DNA of 64,000 nucleotides, from positions 62,001 through 126,000 of the forward strand of contig NZ_JAUNOQ010000008.1 in assembly GCF_030531065.1 (NCBI RefSeq). Direction: 5' to 3'. The notes beneath the pieces are model-generated. The model saw nothing but the letters and a program-made list of their open reading frames with translations. It was not told where the DNA came from and ran no database searches. The stretch is from Phascolarctobacterium sp. (GTDB lineage: Bacteria > Bacillota > Negativicutes > Acidaminococcales > Acidaminococcaceae). This document shows, one piece after another, positions 628-51,947 of the stretch. The translations under genes were made by a program, and so were the position numbers. Each line of letters begins with the position of its first letter. Positions within the stretch are counted from its first letter, which is position 1.

Positions 628-2898
628 TTATTCACCCAACGCTATTTTTTCCGGAGTCAGCGGCAGCGTACAAATACGGTGTCCCGTAGCTTGGTAAATG
701 GCGTCGGCAATAGCGGGAGCAGGCGTATTGATTACCAGTTCGCCTATGGACTTAGCGCCGAAGGGACCGCTGCTTTCATAGCTGCAGGCAAAGTCCACAT
801 GAATGTGCCCGATATCCTCGCGGCAGGGTATTTTATACTGCATCAAAGAATTTTCGCAGACGCGGCCCTCAGGGCTGTAAGTAACATTTTCCATCAGCGT
901 CATACCGATGCCCTGCAAAATGCCGCCCTCCGTCTGCACCCGCGCCAGATGCGGATTGATAGGCGTACCGCAGTCCACGGAGGCATAATAATTGACGACT
1001 TCCGTCTCACCGGTCAAAAGGTCTGTTTCCATTTCGGCTACGCCGGCCATAAACGGCGGCGGCGACAGCACGCTGTTCATCTGTACCGTTTCCTCCAGCG
1101 CAATATCGTTATCGCACTGGGAAGCCGTAGCTATATCCACGAGGGAAATAGACTTGCCGTCAGACGCGTTGCGCACCAGCCTGCCGTCGAAAACCACGTC
1201 CTCCGCAGCGCAGCCCAGCTTTTTAGCTCCCAAAGCGCAGATTTTCTCCCGCAGCTTATGGGCGCAGGCATAAACGGCGTTGCCTGTAATGTAAGTCGTA
1301 CTGGAGGCATAAGAGCCGGAATCGTAAGGAGACGCATCCGTATCCGCGCCGAAAACCGCAATATCGTCCATGGAGCAGTCCAATGCCTCTGCGGCCATCT
1401 GCGCCAGAATCGTATCGCAGCCCGTGCCCATATCTGCCGCGCCAATGAGCAGCGTGTAGCTGCCGTCGTCGTTCAGCTTAATCGTAGCGCCGCCCACGTC
1501 GCAATAAGGAATGGACGATCCCTGCATAGCGATAGCCACGCCCATGGAGCGCACCTTGCCGTTGGGCAGCACGCGCTTCGGGAATTTTTCATCCCAGCCG
1601 CTCATCTCGCGTACCTGCGCCAGGCATTTATCCAGGGCGCAGCTGGTATTGGGCGCGCCGTAATACGCGGGCATCATATCGCCCTCGCGAGTAATATTCA
1701 TCTCGCGCAGGGTAATGGGGTCTATGTGCAGCTTATGAGCCAGCTCGTTGACCGCCGTTTCCACAGCAAAGATGCCCTGGGGCGCGCCGTAGCCGCGGTA
1801 CGCTCCGGCAGCCTGCAAATTGGTATAAACCACATCGTAGGCAAAACGGAACGCCTCCGTGCGGTACAGGGGAATGGATTTATGTCCTGACAAGCCTACC
1901 GTGGTGGGGCCATGCTCGCCGTAAGCGCCCGTATTGGAAAGCGTGTAAAGGTCGATAGCACGAATCTTACCTTCTTTAGTCGCGCCCAAACGCACCCTGA
2001 CCTCCATTTCATGGCGGGGGCTGGCCGCAATATGGCATTCCTCGCGGGAATAAATCATTTTCGAAGGTTTCTTTAAACGCCAGGTAACGAATGCCGGGTA
2101 CAGCTCGCTGACGCAGCTCTGTTTAGCGCCGAAGCCACCGCCGATGCGGGGCTTGGTCACGCGCACCTTAGTTTTAGGCAGATGCAGAGCGTTGGCGATA
2201 ATGCGCCGCGCATGGAAAACAATCTGCGTGGAGCTGACCACATGCAAGCGTCCATAGGTATCGATAGTACAAAAGGTAGTAAAGGGCTCCATCATATCCT
2301 GCTGCACGGCCTTCACGCGGCAGGTACGGTCGATAATAACGTCGCACTCCGCCAGCACGGCGTCCACATCGCCGTCGCCGCAAACTTCGTGAGCGCATAA
2401 ATTGCGTTTATTATCCGCTCCTACCGGCGCCAGGGATTCCCAGGTCGCCTCAGGATGCACCAAGACCGGGTTATCCAACGCGGTATGGAAGTCAAGTACG
2501 GCGTCCAGCACCTGATACTTTACTTTCAAAAGCGACAACGCCTTATCCACCGCCTTTTCCGTTCTACCGGCAACGATGGCCACCACGTCGCCCACAAAGC
2601 GCACATGGCGATCCAGCAGCAAACGGTCGTAGGGACTGGGCTCCGGATAGGTCTGGCCGGCATAGGTGCAGCGCCGTCCCTCCTGGTCCACATCCTCATA
2701 AGTAAAAACAGCTTCGATATCCGGCACCTTGGACGCGGCTGCCTTATTGATGCTTTCGATAATAGCGTTGGCGTGGGGCGAACGCAGCACCTTAACGATC
2801 AGGCAGTCCTTAGGCGCAAGATCGTCGGTGTATACCGGCTGACCGGTTACCAGCTGCATAGCGTCCTTTTTACGATAAGACTGATTAACTATCTTCAT
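628..2898 (-). CDS. xdhA: Xanthine dehydrogenase-type molybdenum-binding subunit
   Basis: Large catalytic subunit of a molybdenum hydroxylase of the xanthine oxidase family, 756 aa. The N-terminal about 110 residues are the a/b-hammerhead domain; the rest binds the cofactor. Visible family motifs are RIGGGFGAKQS (cofactor loop), GAYRGYGAPQG, GAADMGTGCDT, and the C-terminal GAKSIGE whose Glu corresponds to the active-site base of xanthine oxidase. It lies 3 nt downstream of the 2Fe-2S subunit gene, in the order FAD, FeS, Mo. Neighbouring yqeB, yqeC, selD and a nucleobase permease point to a selenium-dependent purine hydroxylase. The actual substrate (xanthine, another purine or another heterocycle) cannot be read from the sequence. 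In the same family some members are annotated as selenate reductase subunits, which is an alternative. Confidence 0.9.
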   Translation of the reverse strand: MKIVNQSYRKKDAMQLVTGQPVYTDDLAPKDCLIVKVLRSPHANAIIESINKAAASKVPDIEAVFTYEDVDQEGRRCTYAGQTYPEPSPYDRLLLDRHVRFVGDVVAIVAGRTEKAVDKALSLLKVKYQVLDAVLDFHTALDNPVLVHPEATWESLAPVGADNKRNLCAHEVCGDGDVDAVLAECDVIIDRTCRVKAVQQDMMEPFTTFCTIDTYGRLHVVSSTQIVFHARRIIANALHLPKTKVRVTKPRIGGGFGAKQSCVSELYPAFVTWRLKKPSKMIYSREECHIAASPRHEMEVRVRLGATKEGKIRAIDLYTLSNTGAYGEHGPTTVGLSGHKSIPLYRTEAFRFAYDVVYTNLQAAGAYRGYGAPQGIFAVETAVNELAHKLHIDPITLREMNITREGDMMPAYYGAPNTSCALDKCLAQVREMSGWDEKFPKRVLPNGKVRSMGVAIAMQGSSIPYCDVGGATIKLNDDGSYTLLIGAADMGTGCDTILAQMAAEALDCSMDDIAVFGADTDASPYDSGSYASSTTYITGNAVYACAHKLREKICALGAKKLGCAAEDVVFDGRLVRNASDGKSISLVDIATASQCDNDIALEETVQMNSVLSPPPFMAGVAEMETDLLTGETEVVNYYASVDCGTPINPHLARVQTEGGILQGIGMTLMENVTYSPEGRVCENSLMQYKIPCREDIGHIHVDFACSYESSGPFGAKSIGELVINTPAPAIADAIYQATGHRICTLPLTPEKIALGE

Positions 2899-20084: not shown

Positions 20085-20112
20085 ATTATACACCGTTGTC
20101 CCCCCCAGTCAA
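20085..20112 (-). promoter_or_regulatory. Autotransporter 1 promoter with G7 tract in the spacer
   Basis: -35 TTGACT (20107-20112) and -10 TATAAT (20085-20090) on the minus strand, spacer 16 bp beginning with seven G (20100-20106). The start of transcription would be about 140 nt before ATG 19936. The spacer is one base shorter than at the paralogue. Confidence 0.8.
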
Positions 20113-20113
20113 G

Positions 20114-20136
20114 CAAAAGTGCATCGAGCACTTTTG
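20114..20136. promoter_or_regulatory. Inverted repeat next to the -35 box, copy 1
   Basis: Arms CAAAAGTGC (20114-20122) and GCACTTTTG (20128-20136), 5-nt loop, directly upstream of the -35 box. A second stem, CAGCGC/GCGCTG (20142-20157), follows. The paralogous copy has swapped inner pairs that keep pairing. Confidence 0.65.
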
Positions 20137-20326
20137 TCTTGCAGCGCTGACGCGCTGGCTGCTGCTGATTCACACTGCAAATAGTTTTACCGCCGCGTTC
20201 TACCGCTCCCTTCACATACGCCTGCCGCTTTTACAATACAAAAAAGCTGTCGGACAGCAGCTTCCACAGCAGCCAGTCAACAGCCTATTACCTATCGTTA
20301 ATTATAAAATTATAGTTAATTATTAA

Positions 20327-20608
20327 TCATTTTTTGAATAGCTCTGCATGCGAGCCCAATCTATAAAGCATTAAAACAAGAACGTCATTATGAATTTCAT
20401 AAATCAATATCCAATCTGGCTCTACATGGCACTCACGAGTTCCTTTATAATTGCCGACAAGTTCGTGATCCTTATATTTTGCATCCAATGTTCCGCCATT
20501 AGCCAAAATATCGATTACTGTAAATAACTTATCAAGATTTTTATTCTACTTTTTAGCCAGCTTCAAATCGCGTTTAAACCGACTCGTAAACTGAACATCA
20601 TATTTCAT
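20327..20608 (-). pseudogene. YafQ/RelE-type toxin gene with in-frame stop
   Basis: Frame of 94 codons coding a YafQ-family mRNA interferase: KYDVQFTSRFKRDLKLAKK, a TAG at codon 21 (20546-20548), then NKNLDKLFTVIDILANGG, DHELVGNYKGTRECHVEPDW, and RLGSHAELFKK. Catalytic-type residues of YafQ (His in DHEL, His and Asp-Trp in CHVEPDW, His in GSHAELF) are all still present, and CAG to TAG is a single change. So the toxin appears freshly inactivated. Its ATG overlaps the antitoxin stop (ATGA), the usual arrangement. Confidence 0.88.
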
Positions 20609-20877
20609 ACTTCAAGAGCCTCCCTAAGCGCCTTCATACTGGAATATCTTGGAGCAGAAGTATCAGCTATAAGTTTTTTGCCTTCCTCTATAGCAGCCGC
20701 CGTCGTTGCATTAGGAACATCTATTTTCAAAGAAAAAGGAATGCCATGTTCTCTAATCGTTGTTCTCAAAAACATATTAATAGCCGTAGTCATAGTCAAC
20801 CCAAGTTCATTAAAAATCTGTTCAGCCTGCTCTTTAACCATTTTATCAGTCCTAATATTTAAATTAGTTGTCGTCAT
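20605..20877 (-). CDS. RelB/DinJ family antitoxin
   Basis: 90-aa antitoxin of the RelB/DinJ family: an N-terminal ribbon-helix-helix DNA-binding segment (TTTNLNIRTDKMVKEQAEQIFNELG, broken here as residues 2-26) with LTMTTAINMFLRTTI, and a C-terminal toxin-binding tail. ATG 20877 has GGAGGTG 6 nt upstream. It probably represses its own promoter. The partner toxin is disrupted by a stop codon, so this antitoxin is now an orphan. Confidence 0.9.
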   Translation of the reverse strand: MTTTNLNIRTDKMVKEQAEQIFNELGLTMTTAINMFLRTTIREHGIPFSLKIDVPNATTAAAIEEGKKLIADTSAPRYSSMKALREALEV

Positions 20878-30798: not shown

Positions 30799-30848
30799 TA
30801 GCTTTACCTCCTGTATAATATATGCTCTTGAATGAATAAAAAATAAAA

Positions 30849-30933
30849 GCCTTCTCGTCCCATGTAGGTACAAGAAGGCCCTTGCTTGTCAACAGTAGCT
30901 TAACCTTGCAGTCTCACGGGACCAATTTAAAGG
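30849..30933 (-). promoter_or_regulatory. PyrR-type attenuator leader of the pyr operon
   Basis: Minus-strand leader. First comes a PyrR-binding anti-antiterminator (30904-30933) with the signature ATTGGTCCCGTGAGACTG closed by CCTT...AAGG. Then a terminator hairpin (30849-30879) of 10 bp, GCCTTCTTGT with ACGAGAAGGC, followed by TTTTATTTTTT. With UMP-bound PyrR, transcription should stop before pyrB. pyrR is not in this window. Confidence 0.85.
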
Positions 30934-30950
30934 TGCATTTGATTGTATAT

Positions 30951-32349: not shown

Positions 32350-35300
32350 TTAGAAGCTCCAACGCATGCCCACGTTCCACTGCCACGGCGTAGCCACGTC
32401 GCCGCCATAGGTCTTTTCTACGTCAAAGTACAAATGCGCCGCGTCGCTGAAGTTGATGTTGGTGCCTAAGCCAACCTCCCACCAGCCGCCGCCGAGGTCT
32501 TGCTCGATGGTTCTGCTTACTCTGCCCTTAGCGAAGCTCATGCTGGTATCGCCGTCAAAGTCGTACAAATAGGATGCGCGCAGATATACATTGCCCTTAT
32601 CCTTTGCCAAATCCTTGCCCAGCGCAAAGCCCAAACGACCTACGAAGCTGTCCATACCGTCCTGGCGCACTCTGACGCCGTTCGAGGTCAGATAATCGGC
32701 GCTACCTACTTTGCCGTAGGTCAGTTCTACCTGTGGCTCAATCCACAGCCCGTTGTCCTTCGTAAAGCGTTTGCCATATTCCGCGCTCAAGCTGTAGCCG
32801 TTGGTATCATAATCGCCCTTGCCTGCGCCGCCGGTTACGTCAAATTCATGGTCCAAACGCGCATATTTAGCGATTAAATCGATAAAGCTGCCGTCGTCGC
32901 CCAAGTAGCTGCCGTACAGAGCCAGGCCCTTATGAGTGTTTTCGCCAGTGCCCTTATTAAAGCTGCTTTCGCCGTCAGTATAGGTGAAGGCCGCGCCCAC
33001 CGTCCAGTTCTTATTCACGCTCAACTTTTCGTCGTAACCGATTTGGTAGCTGTTGTACTGGTTCTTAATGCTCTTGTACTTGCCTTCGCCGCGGGTCATG
33101 CGCACCCACACGCCGTGCTCGCCGCTGCTGTCGCGCAGCTCGCCTAAGCGCTTGTTCATATCGTTATTTTCCTGACGCCAAGTCATCAGCGCAATAGCGC
33201 CCATGTTGCTGATACCTGCGTTGGAGGTGTTGACGGCTTCTTTAATTGTGTTCAGTACAACTAAACCATCTTTTACACTCGCTGTAGCTAAACCGGTAAC
33301 AGCAGTTTCTGCCATCTCAACATCAGTTGCAGCAGAATCTTTTGCTCTATCAACAGTTTCATCACTTACCTGGTCTGCTATCAATTGCAAGGCGTCATTC
33401 ATATCGTACTGTTGTACCAACCGTTCAGCATAAGCTCTTGTTGTAGCAACATTCAATTTTTGCAAATCGTTCTTTTCGATAATTTGCATTTTATTCTCGG
33501 TATCGTTAACAATAACAGTGCCTTCACCAGAAATATTTTCTACTTGTACAGCTTGTTCTTCTGCATCGGTTAAATTTACTATACCTTTGTCCAAAGTCAA
33601 ATTGTTTAGAGCAGTAGATTGAACGCCAGAATCGCTCTTAGAACTGCCATCTTCATTATATTCGCCTTCTATTGAAACTTTTTGAGCATTCCATTGAGCG
33701 TTATCGGCAAGTGTTAAACTAAAGTTTTCAATTTTTAGTTCTTCAGCGTCAGGGCGATGAGTTACATTTCCGTTTTTATCAGTTTTAGCATCCCATGTAA
33801 CCTTAGTATTGCCATTCCATACAGATTCAGCACCAGTTAATTTAACTTCTACGGTCGTATCAATACGTGTCCCAGAAGTATTGCCATCATAAGAGAAATT
33901 AATATCGCCATTCAATTTAGTAACATTAGTATTGTCTGCACCAGTATTAACTTTTAATACAGAATCACCGCGAGCAGAAATAGCGTCATCAGCGTTAACT
34001 TCAATATTACCGTCGACATTCATTCGCCCTTGGCTCATAGTCACTAAGCCAGTCGAATGCCCTTCTTGTTCTGCTGTGCTATTGACCAAAATATTATCTG
34101 CCTTAATATTTATTGTTGCAAATTTTTCAGCATTATCAGCAGGAACGCTATTGTTCTGAGCAGAAATACCATAAGCCCATCCTGCGCCAGTAGCACTCGT
34201 ATTAACTGTTAAATTTTTGGTATTGATATCAACAGTAGAACCTTTTACAGCACAAATACCTACATTTATTGTTTCTTTATTATCAGGATTATTAGAAGCA
34301 GTATTAATGATAATATTTTCCGTTTTATCACTACCAAGTTTTACTGACGTACCATTTTTTACTTCTACACCTCTAGCAATATCTGCAATAACGTCAATAG
34401 ATAAATCTCCTTCTGTGTTTACAAGTGTTGTATTAGCTGTCGTACCATCAAAATCATTAGTCATAATGCCTACAGCTTTACCACCAATAGCATTATTTTT
34501 TACTACAATATTGCTATTATTTATTTTAATATTAGCTATACCTTCATCAGTCACAGAAGAATTAGAGTAACCATCAATAGCTTTTATACCCACAGCAAGG
34601 CCGAATTGATCACCATTAAGATTATCTTTATTATCTTTCAATAAAGGTTTACTAATATTACCGTTAGATTCTACATATATATCAGCAGTACCTTTAATAT
34701 CAATATTACCCATCTCCGCTACTATACCATAAACAGGCGAAGCATAATCCCCAGTAGCGCTACCAATTACGTCAATATCAACCACGGTATTTGCAGAAGC
34801 AACAATTTTAGCATTCTCAGTATAAGTAGTTAAACCCATAGTCTCAGTACGAAGTTTTTGTTCATTTCTTGTCGTAGCAGTATTGACATTAATATCAACA
34901 AAAGAACCATTAAAACTTGTTAAAGTATTTCCGCCAGCAGATATGCCGTATGCGGCTTTACCATTTTCATTAGTCGTAGTAACATCCACCAAAAGATTAT
35001 CGTTAAAAGTAATTTTACCATTATCCATGGCTAAGCCATTAATAGCGTTATTACCTGTACCAGTCAAATCTGTAGATACGCTAATTCCTACACTTTTGTT
35101 GAAAGTTAAGTCAGCAGTATTACTATTAATCATTAATCCACTAATGCCTGAATTAGTAGTATATGTACCACTATTAATAGTAAATTTGTAATTTACATCA
35201 TTATCAATAACTTTCTCCCCATTATAATAATATCCACCAACGCTATAGCAACTATAATTTTGCCCGTTAATTAAATGATTAGAATGATCCATCGTTGTAA

Positions 35301-35433
35301 TTATTTCAAAACCATTCGCAAGATCTCCTTGAAAATAATAATGAGTTGCTGTTGCCGCCAACGCATTGCCCGTAATCACAAACGCCATGAGCGCGCCTAA
35401 AGCTAAACTTCTTTTCAACACCGTCTTTTTCAT
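32350..35433 (-). CDS. Autotransporter 2 (long passenger plus outer-membrane barrel)
   Basis: 1027-aa type V secreted surface protein. Signal peptide MKKTVLKRSLALGALMAFV with cleavage likely after GNALA, nearly the same as autotransporter 1. The passenger (about 30-750) is AT-rich in DNA and full of Asn/Thr/Ile beta-strand repeats (for example INVNTATTRNEQK, IKINNSNIVVKNN). The barrel domain (about 765-1027) starts near GEHGVWVRMTRGEG and ends MRWSF. ATG 35433 is chosen for the signal peptide and upstream GGCGGAGG. The barrel DNA is GC-rich while the passenger is AT-rich, which suggests passenger exchange or relaxed evolution. Confidence 0.9.
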   Translation of the reverse strand: MKKTVLKRSLALGALMAFVITGNALAATATHYYFQGDLANGFEIITTMDHSNHLINGQNYSCYSVGGYYYNGEKVIDNDVNYKFTINSGTYTTNSGISGLMINSNTADLTFNKSVGISVSTDLTGTGNNAINGLAMDNGKITFNDNLLVDVTTTNENGKAAYGISAGGNTLTSFNGSFVDINVNTATTRNEQKLRTETMGLTTYTENAKIVASANTVVDIDVIGSATGDYASPVYGIVAEMGNIDIKGTADIYVESNGNISKPLLKDNKDNLNGDQFGLAVGIKAIDGYSNSSVTDEGIANIKINNSNIVVKNNAIGGKAVGIMTNDFDGTTANTTLVNTEGDLSIDVIADIARGVEVKNGTSVKLGSDKTENIIINTASNNPDNKETINVGICAVKGSTVDINTKNLTVNTSATGAGWAYGISAQNNSVPADNAEKFATINIKADNILVNSTAEQEGHSTGLVTMSQGRMNVDGNIEVNADDAISARGDSVLKVNTGADNTNVTKLNGDINFSYDGNTSGTRIDTTVEVKLTGAESVWNGNTKVTWDAKTDKNGNVTHRPDAEELKIENFSLTLADNAQWNAQKVSIEGEYNEDGSSKSDSGVQSTALNNLTLDKGIVNLTDAEEQAVQVENISGEGTVIVNDTENKMQIIEKNDLQKLNVATTRAYAERLVQQYDMNDALQLIADQVSDETVDRAKDSAATDVEMAETAVTGLATASVKDGLVVLNTIKEAVNTSNAGISNMGAIALMTWRQENNDMNKRLGELRDSSGEHGVWVRMTRGEGKYKSIKNQYNSYQIGYDEKLSVNKNWTVGAAFTYTDGESSFNKGTGENTHKGLALYGSYLGDDGSFIDLIAKYARLDHEFDVTGGAGKGDYDTNGYSLSAEYGKRFTKDNGLWIEPQVELTYGKVGSADYLTSNGVRVRQDGMDSFVGRLGFALGKDLAKDKGNVYLRASYLYDFDGDTSMSFAKGRVSRTIEQDLGGGWWEVGLGTNINFSDAAHLYFDVEKTYGGDVATPWQWNVGMRWSF

Positions 35434-35577: not shown

Positions 35578-35606
35578 ATTATATACGCTTGTCCCCCCCC
35601 TGTCAA
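35578..35606 (-). promoter_or_regulatory. Autotransporter 2 promoter with G8 tract in the spacer
   Basis: -35 TTGACA (35601-35606), -10 TATAAT (35578-35583), spacer 17 bp beginning with eight G (35593-35600). The 17-bp spacer is optimal, so this copy may be the more active one. Confidence 0.82.

Positions 35607-50813: not shown

Positions 50814-51947
<1,134 letters not shown>

Follow-up and report, generated by a model that had tools for sequence, protein, structure and literature searches.

A poly-G spacer tract before a Phascolarctobacterium autotransporter gene belongs to a recurrent Negativicutes promoter type and may modulate transcription by slippage

The window, by which we mean the whole 64,000-nucleotide stretch of Phascolarctobacterium DNA analysed here, carries on its minus strand a promoter of the form TTGACT-GGGGGGG-ACAACGGTG-TATAAT (20112→20085) with a spacer of 16 bp, followed by the gene for autotransporter 1 (Table 1). 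The two boxes together score 11/12 in a sigma-70 consensus scan. The gene encodes a classical type Va autotransporter, with signal peptide (recognised by eye), passenger and C-terminal β-domain (PF03797) all present. The first-pass annotation had reported these boxes, the tract and the spacer length, and its sequence and coordinates are correct, the strand being minus. It had also named a surface autotransporter as the target, which agrees with the PF03797 gene downstream, presumably under the control of this promoter. Three features were absent from that annotation, namely a second promoter of the same type within the window, with a tract of G8, an ACAA motif directly after the tract, and a hairpin that takes in the -35 box.

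Table 1. Features of the two autotransporter loci in the window.
Feature	Position	Strand	Basis or remark
Autotransporter 1; signal MKKIMLKRSLALGALMAFAITGSALA; β-domain at residues 546-798 of P0001	17486..19936	-	PF03797, E=7.8e-27
-10 box TATAAT	20085..20090	-	sequence; consensus scan
Rest of spacer, ACAACGGTG	20099-20091	-	
ACAA right after tract, conserved across own-genome family	20096..20099	-	20/20 matches carry GAC[AG]A
G7 tract in spacer, adjoining -35 box	20100..20106	-	sequence
-35 box TTGACT, preceded by C (CTTG)	20107..20112	-	sequence; 11/12 sigma-70 match
Hairpin CAAG-A-CAAAAGTGC-TCGAT-GCACTTTTG-CTTG	20110..20141	-	CTTG arm holds TTG of -35 box
Second, upstream hairpin CAGCGC-gtca-GCGCTG	20142..20157	-	similar hairpin upstream in other hairpin-type members
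Autotransporter 2, downstream of G8 promoter	32350..35433	-	PF03797, E=2.4e-45
Second family promoter, TTGACA-G8-ACAAGCGTA-TATAAT, 17-bp spacer	35578..35606	-	same two hairpins precede

Two small ORFs upstream of the G7 promoter (20336-20877, minus strand) have, by eye, the look of a RelE/ParE-type toxin and its antitoxin. Termination of the upstream gene was rejected as the sole role of the hairpins, given a separate terminator-like hairpin further upstream at 20265-20242, and likewise at the second promoter, where rpsO has its own terminator before the G8 promoter (by eye). A CRP/FNR-like operator (TTGTC-N6-GACAA) was dropped, its right half not being kept in other genera, as was phage carriage, for which viral contigs gave no match. 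A comparison of the 5′ leader with Rfam returned no known RNA family and only sub-threshold matches elsewhere. A PyrR binding site was matched below threshold at window positions 30843-30937 on the minus strand (37.2 bits against a gathering score of 54).

A run of seven G is in itself unremarkable, as the window holds four word matches against 8.07 expected from shuffles, and another G7 run (51687-51693) falls in a coding sequence resembling tgt (by eye). These figures alone would suit a standard promoter whose spacer happens to contain a run of G. The complete layout does not. The 2.37-Mb genome contains TTGACT-G7-N9-TATAAT four times and its reversed pattern never, while relaxed patterns find 17 to 20 matches, the set of 17 including the G8 promoter of the window, and again none reversed. 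In all, we count about 37 family promoters in this genome, comprising about 36 of its 56 runs of at least G7 together with one G6 copy, these runs and their surroundings having been sorted by eye into promoters and the rest; most of the non-promoter runs of that length lie within coding sequence. The layout was also found in 67 of 380 Negativicutes genomes and 25 of 102 genera, with no match to the reversed-pattern control in any of the 380. The promoter arrangement is far beyond chance, and the explanation by a random run is refuted by these copy numbers and controls.

Within the family the tract keeps its place. The own-genome copies pair tract length with the distance from TTG to TATAAT as G7 with 28 bases (25 copies), G8 with 29 (six) and G6 with 27 (one), such that G6, G7 and G8 correspond to spacers of 15, 16 and 17 bp and a change in length is never compensated. 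When the ACAA was left out of the search pattern, GAC[AG]A was still present in all 20 matches. Poly-G is otherwise scarce in this genome, with 71 G7 and 15 G8 words against about 298 and 70 expected when the window shuffle rates (8.07 and 1.90 per 64 kb) are extrapolated to the whole genome, an approximately 4-fold depletion. As judged from these comparisons, the promoter type is conserved and the tract holds a fixed position in it, something that the first-pass annotation had not foreseen.

Across the class the usual layout is CTTG, a tract of G7 or more, often ACA, and TGnTATAAT, with 28 bases from TTG to TATAAT. This distance is kept in 78 of the 94 matches listed for family f1, though the pattern permitted a wider range, and TGn precedes TATAAT in 87 of the 94. 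The sister records that carry the motif all come from Phascolarctobacterium, and in a search across 84,980 species 14 of the 15 named matches belong to Negativicutes, the remaining one being labelled Bacteroidota. The contig of that Bacteroidota MAG (L057) carries a near-identical, Phascolarctobacterium-like promoter and a sugar transferase gene, and is probably misplaced or misbinned. The promoter type appears to be common to the class Negativicutes and previously undescribed, as we found no earlier description in the open literature, in a search that took in few subscription papers and little of bioRxiv.

The constant 28-base layout, and the conservation of an ACAA that was not part of the search pattern, are both in keeping with a fixed regulatory element. 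According to this explanation CTTG-G7-ACAAG and an inverted repeat at the -35 box would form the operator of a regulator, perhaps of the XRE type, or a supercoiling-sensitive element, and tract length would drift neutrally with no phase variation. We consider this a possible but not a probable account. The inverted repeat itself is evident in several ways. A DNA fold of 20107-20170 has an energy of -20.4 kcal/mol (z -4.16), which none of 200 shuffles equalled, and the letters of the hairpin stem vary between copies with pairing kept. Promoters that lack the tight hairpin have, about 25 to 46 bases upstream, a CAAG arm whose neighbouring bases covary with those of the -35 box, specifically with bases 4 and 5 of the hexamer. 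The observed match in these promoters was reached overall in none of 5000 permutations, and with permutation within lineages the match total was 152 against 132.8 (sd 4.8), again reached by 0 of 5000. For the tight-hairpin type the long-range inverted repeat was not significant by permutation under the arm definition used (z 0.62). A dimeric regulator and a DNA hairpin are candidates for what lies behind the repeat, and the covariation of its arms speaks for a fixed element; it also poses a puzzle separate from tract slippage. XRE-type regulator genes themselves have a family promoter in several genera (L172, L175, L177, L149, L152 and L169, with HTH_3 in L172), which again favours the fixed element, and their products are candidates for the regulator of the repeat.

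The hairpins bear on a further explanation, by which the family would be a mobile or REP-like intergenic repeat that carries a promoter by chance, the G tract being part of the repeat. Many copies indeed follow a pair of hairpins whose loops are shared and whose stems vary, and promoter blocks are conserved where flanks differ. The copies are, however, mostly found at promoter position, on the coding strand and before genes, with box spacing kept, and a second promoter type without tight hairpins retains the core. We regard such an origin as improbable.

The first-pass annotation had further proposed that the tract switches by slippage, and this was addressed by comparing promoters that are otherwise alike. 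Run lengths differ in 11 of 23 groups with an identical core outside the tract, and G number differs in 19 of 52 near-identical promoter pairs (at most 12 differences over about 81 sites, pairs inside one group not being independent). The 19 varying pairs all come from the 22 in which a run reaches at least 8; none of the 30 pairs with both tracts at G7 vary, a count in which a G6 partner would mostly be missed, as most patterns excluded G6. Three promoters from three genomes (L199, L204 and L214) are identical at 81/81 other sites and have tracts of G7, G9 and G7. Their 60 bases before the -35 box are likewise identical (60/60) with both flanks diverged, the outer regions by some 5 to 13 percent on the upstream side and by far more downstream, which suggests that the promoter block is under homogenisation or strong constraint. 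Tracts of G7 and G8 are also found before OmpM orthologs (L051 and L060, respectively) and of G8 and G7 in a paralogous pair (L218 and L220).

Some of these results suit a fixed element equally, since upstream bases are shared between genomes with differing flanks and, in other genera, substitution too produces runs of 8 or 9 with the spacing unchanged (8/16 G8 cases in family f1). Slippage therefore does not account for every length difference, and many of the assemblies are draft MAGs in which homopolymer lengths can be wrong. Against a fixed element stand the promoters that are otherwise identical in sequence and differ solely in G number, and the own-genome tract changes that always move the spacer. 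For the promoter class, then, the proposed slippage is borne out to the extent that near-identical copies differ in G number, and tract length differs, thereby shifting the box spacing, among homologous copies of family members other than the window locus. Slippage-based variation of the class is, on these alignments, fairly probable. The proposal fares less well for the G7 locus itself, which is perhaps near-stable. Given that the window tract is at the common length of the family (G7, 16 bp), frequent switching there is the least certain step and we consider it doubtful. Sampled promoters are almost all in the 16-17-bp register, with 15 or 18 bp rare (1/32 in the own genome), hence few were caught in a presumed OFF state.

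The examined genes downstream of family promoters are mostly surface or envelope genes, a bias that is purely descriptive. Own-genome Pfam matches of the envelope kind include the autotransporter β-domain, YadA head, ESPR, ShlB/POTRA, SLH porin and TonB plug, and others include bacterial sugar transferase, sulfatase, GNAT, type III methylase and a dynamin-like GTPase. In other genomes sugar transferase, MBOAT, GT2, sulfatase, TPR and HTH regulators were found. OmpM porin genes are among those behind family promoters, and some secreted-looking downstream proteins have no Pfam match. By analogy, these genes resemble the usual set of contingency genes.

The remaining own-genome G8-G10 tracts lie in coding sequence, mainly in Acyl_transf_3 and glycosyltransferase genes. 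At L079 (C10:78021-81028; tract 1501-1508, minus strand) an acyltransferase gene (PF01757) is interrupted precisely at a G8 and continues in a second frame, which is what a phase-variable coding gene would look like when in its OFF frame. At L076 and at its apparent paralog L124, both on contig C5, adjacent glycosyltransferase genes overlap at a C run (C8 and C7, respectively), whose length may determine the frame between them. A G7 run also lies within what looks, by eye, like the gene of a type I restriction specificity subunit (L142, C26:180325-180331), and in sister genome G006 a G14 run is found 379 bases before an ESPR-type gene (by eye) at the end of contig C13 (L103/L144), where the assembly may have been broken at an unstable tract. 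As read from the assemblies, the coding tracts and the G14 run fit contingency loci. Such coding tracts and the kinds of gene behind the promoters are typical of contingency loci, which argues against a fixed element without phase variation.

Collectively, the boxes, the family, its conserved spacing, the kinds of downstream gene, the differences confined to tract length and the covarying inverted repeat are all backed by sequence. We favour a model (with a probability of roughly 0.6) in which the G7 tract is the G element of a Negativicutes promoter type that transcribes the autotransporter gene and whose spacer slippage modulates this transcription. The type would open with an inverted repeat or hairpin that has CTTG, at the -35 box, as its final bases, followed by a tract of G7-11, often ACA, and TATAAT (often as TGnTATAAT), normally with a spacer of 16 bp. 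A housekeeping-type promoter of this kind would transcribe the autotransporter gene from the window locus. Slippage would add or remove a G and, because the spacer is largely homopolymer, move it between 15 and 18 bp, and this shift should raise or lower transcription with both boxes unchanged if promoter strength differs over that range. Phase variation would follow if the switching rate were sufficient. The conserved ACA and the fixed spacing suggest a further role, for example as a regulator site, and the OmpM porins behind the same promoter, probably needed constitutively, are a counterpoint to switching. As a wider and tentative proposal, which we put somewhat below even odds, many promoters of surface, sugar-coat and methylase genes in each Negativicutes genome would share one architecture, with a slippery G tract between the boxes and a covarying inverted repeat that takes in the -35 box, and slippage together with a structure or regulator at the -35 box would jointly set which surface genes are on in each cell.

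In Neisseria an unstable homopolymer lies between the -10 and -35 boxes of porA, opc and fetA (PMC2791445). The window locus likewise has a homopolymer between recognisable boxes, and the family resembles these promoters in placing it before surface-protein genes, where a change in length alters box spacing. The Negativicutes type differs in being one shared promoter with many copies per genome, in the conserved ACA that, in this lineage, follows the tract, in the TGn that usually precedes the -10 box, in an inverted repeat over the -35 box, and in the shorter tract at the window locus, where switching is a proposal. In Campylobacter jejuni NCTC11168, 29 poly-G/C tracts reach a length of at least seven, and they are mostly coding and concentrated in surface-structure genes (PMC4965091). 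The concentration of such tracts at surface-structure genes is similar here, whereas the tracts of C. jejuni are mostly in reading frames and those described here mostly in promoter spacers, with coding G8-G10 tracts in addition. At Neisseria nadA, the length of a distal repeat could act jointly with protein sites, the NadR operators (PMC2791445). A similar joint action could occur here, although the nadA tract is far upstream, whereas here it is in the spacer and a regulator is hypothetical.

Switching by a spacer homopolymer has been described in a few pathogens, for a handful of genes in each. The present family would extend this to a single slippery-spacer promoter type that serves tens of genes, mostly surface genes, in one genome and recurs across a class. 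If switching occurs, surface heterogeneity of these commensals could be read from tract lengths in existing metagenomes. Among the promoters found is that of a type III restriction-modification methylase gene (L123, C4:173963-175969), which reads TTGC-G7-TACAGGCGTGG-TAAAAT; if this gene were switched, methylation could change genome-wide.
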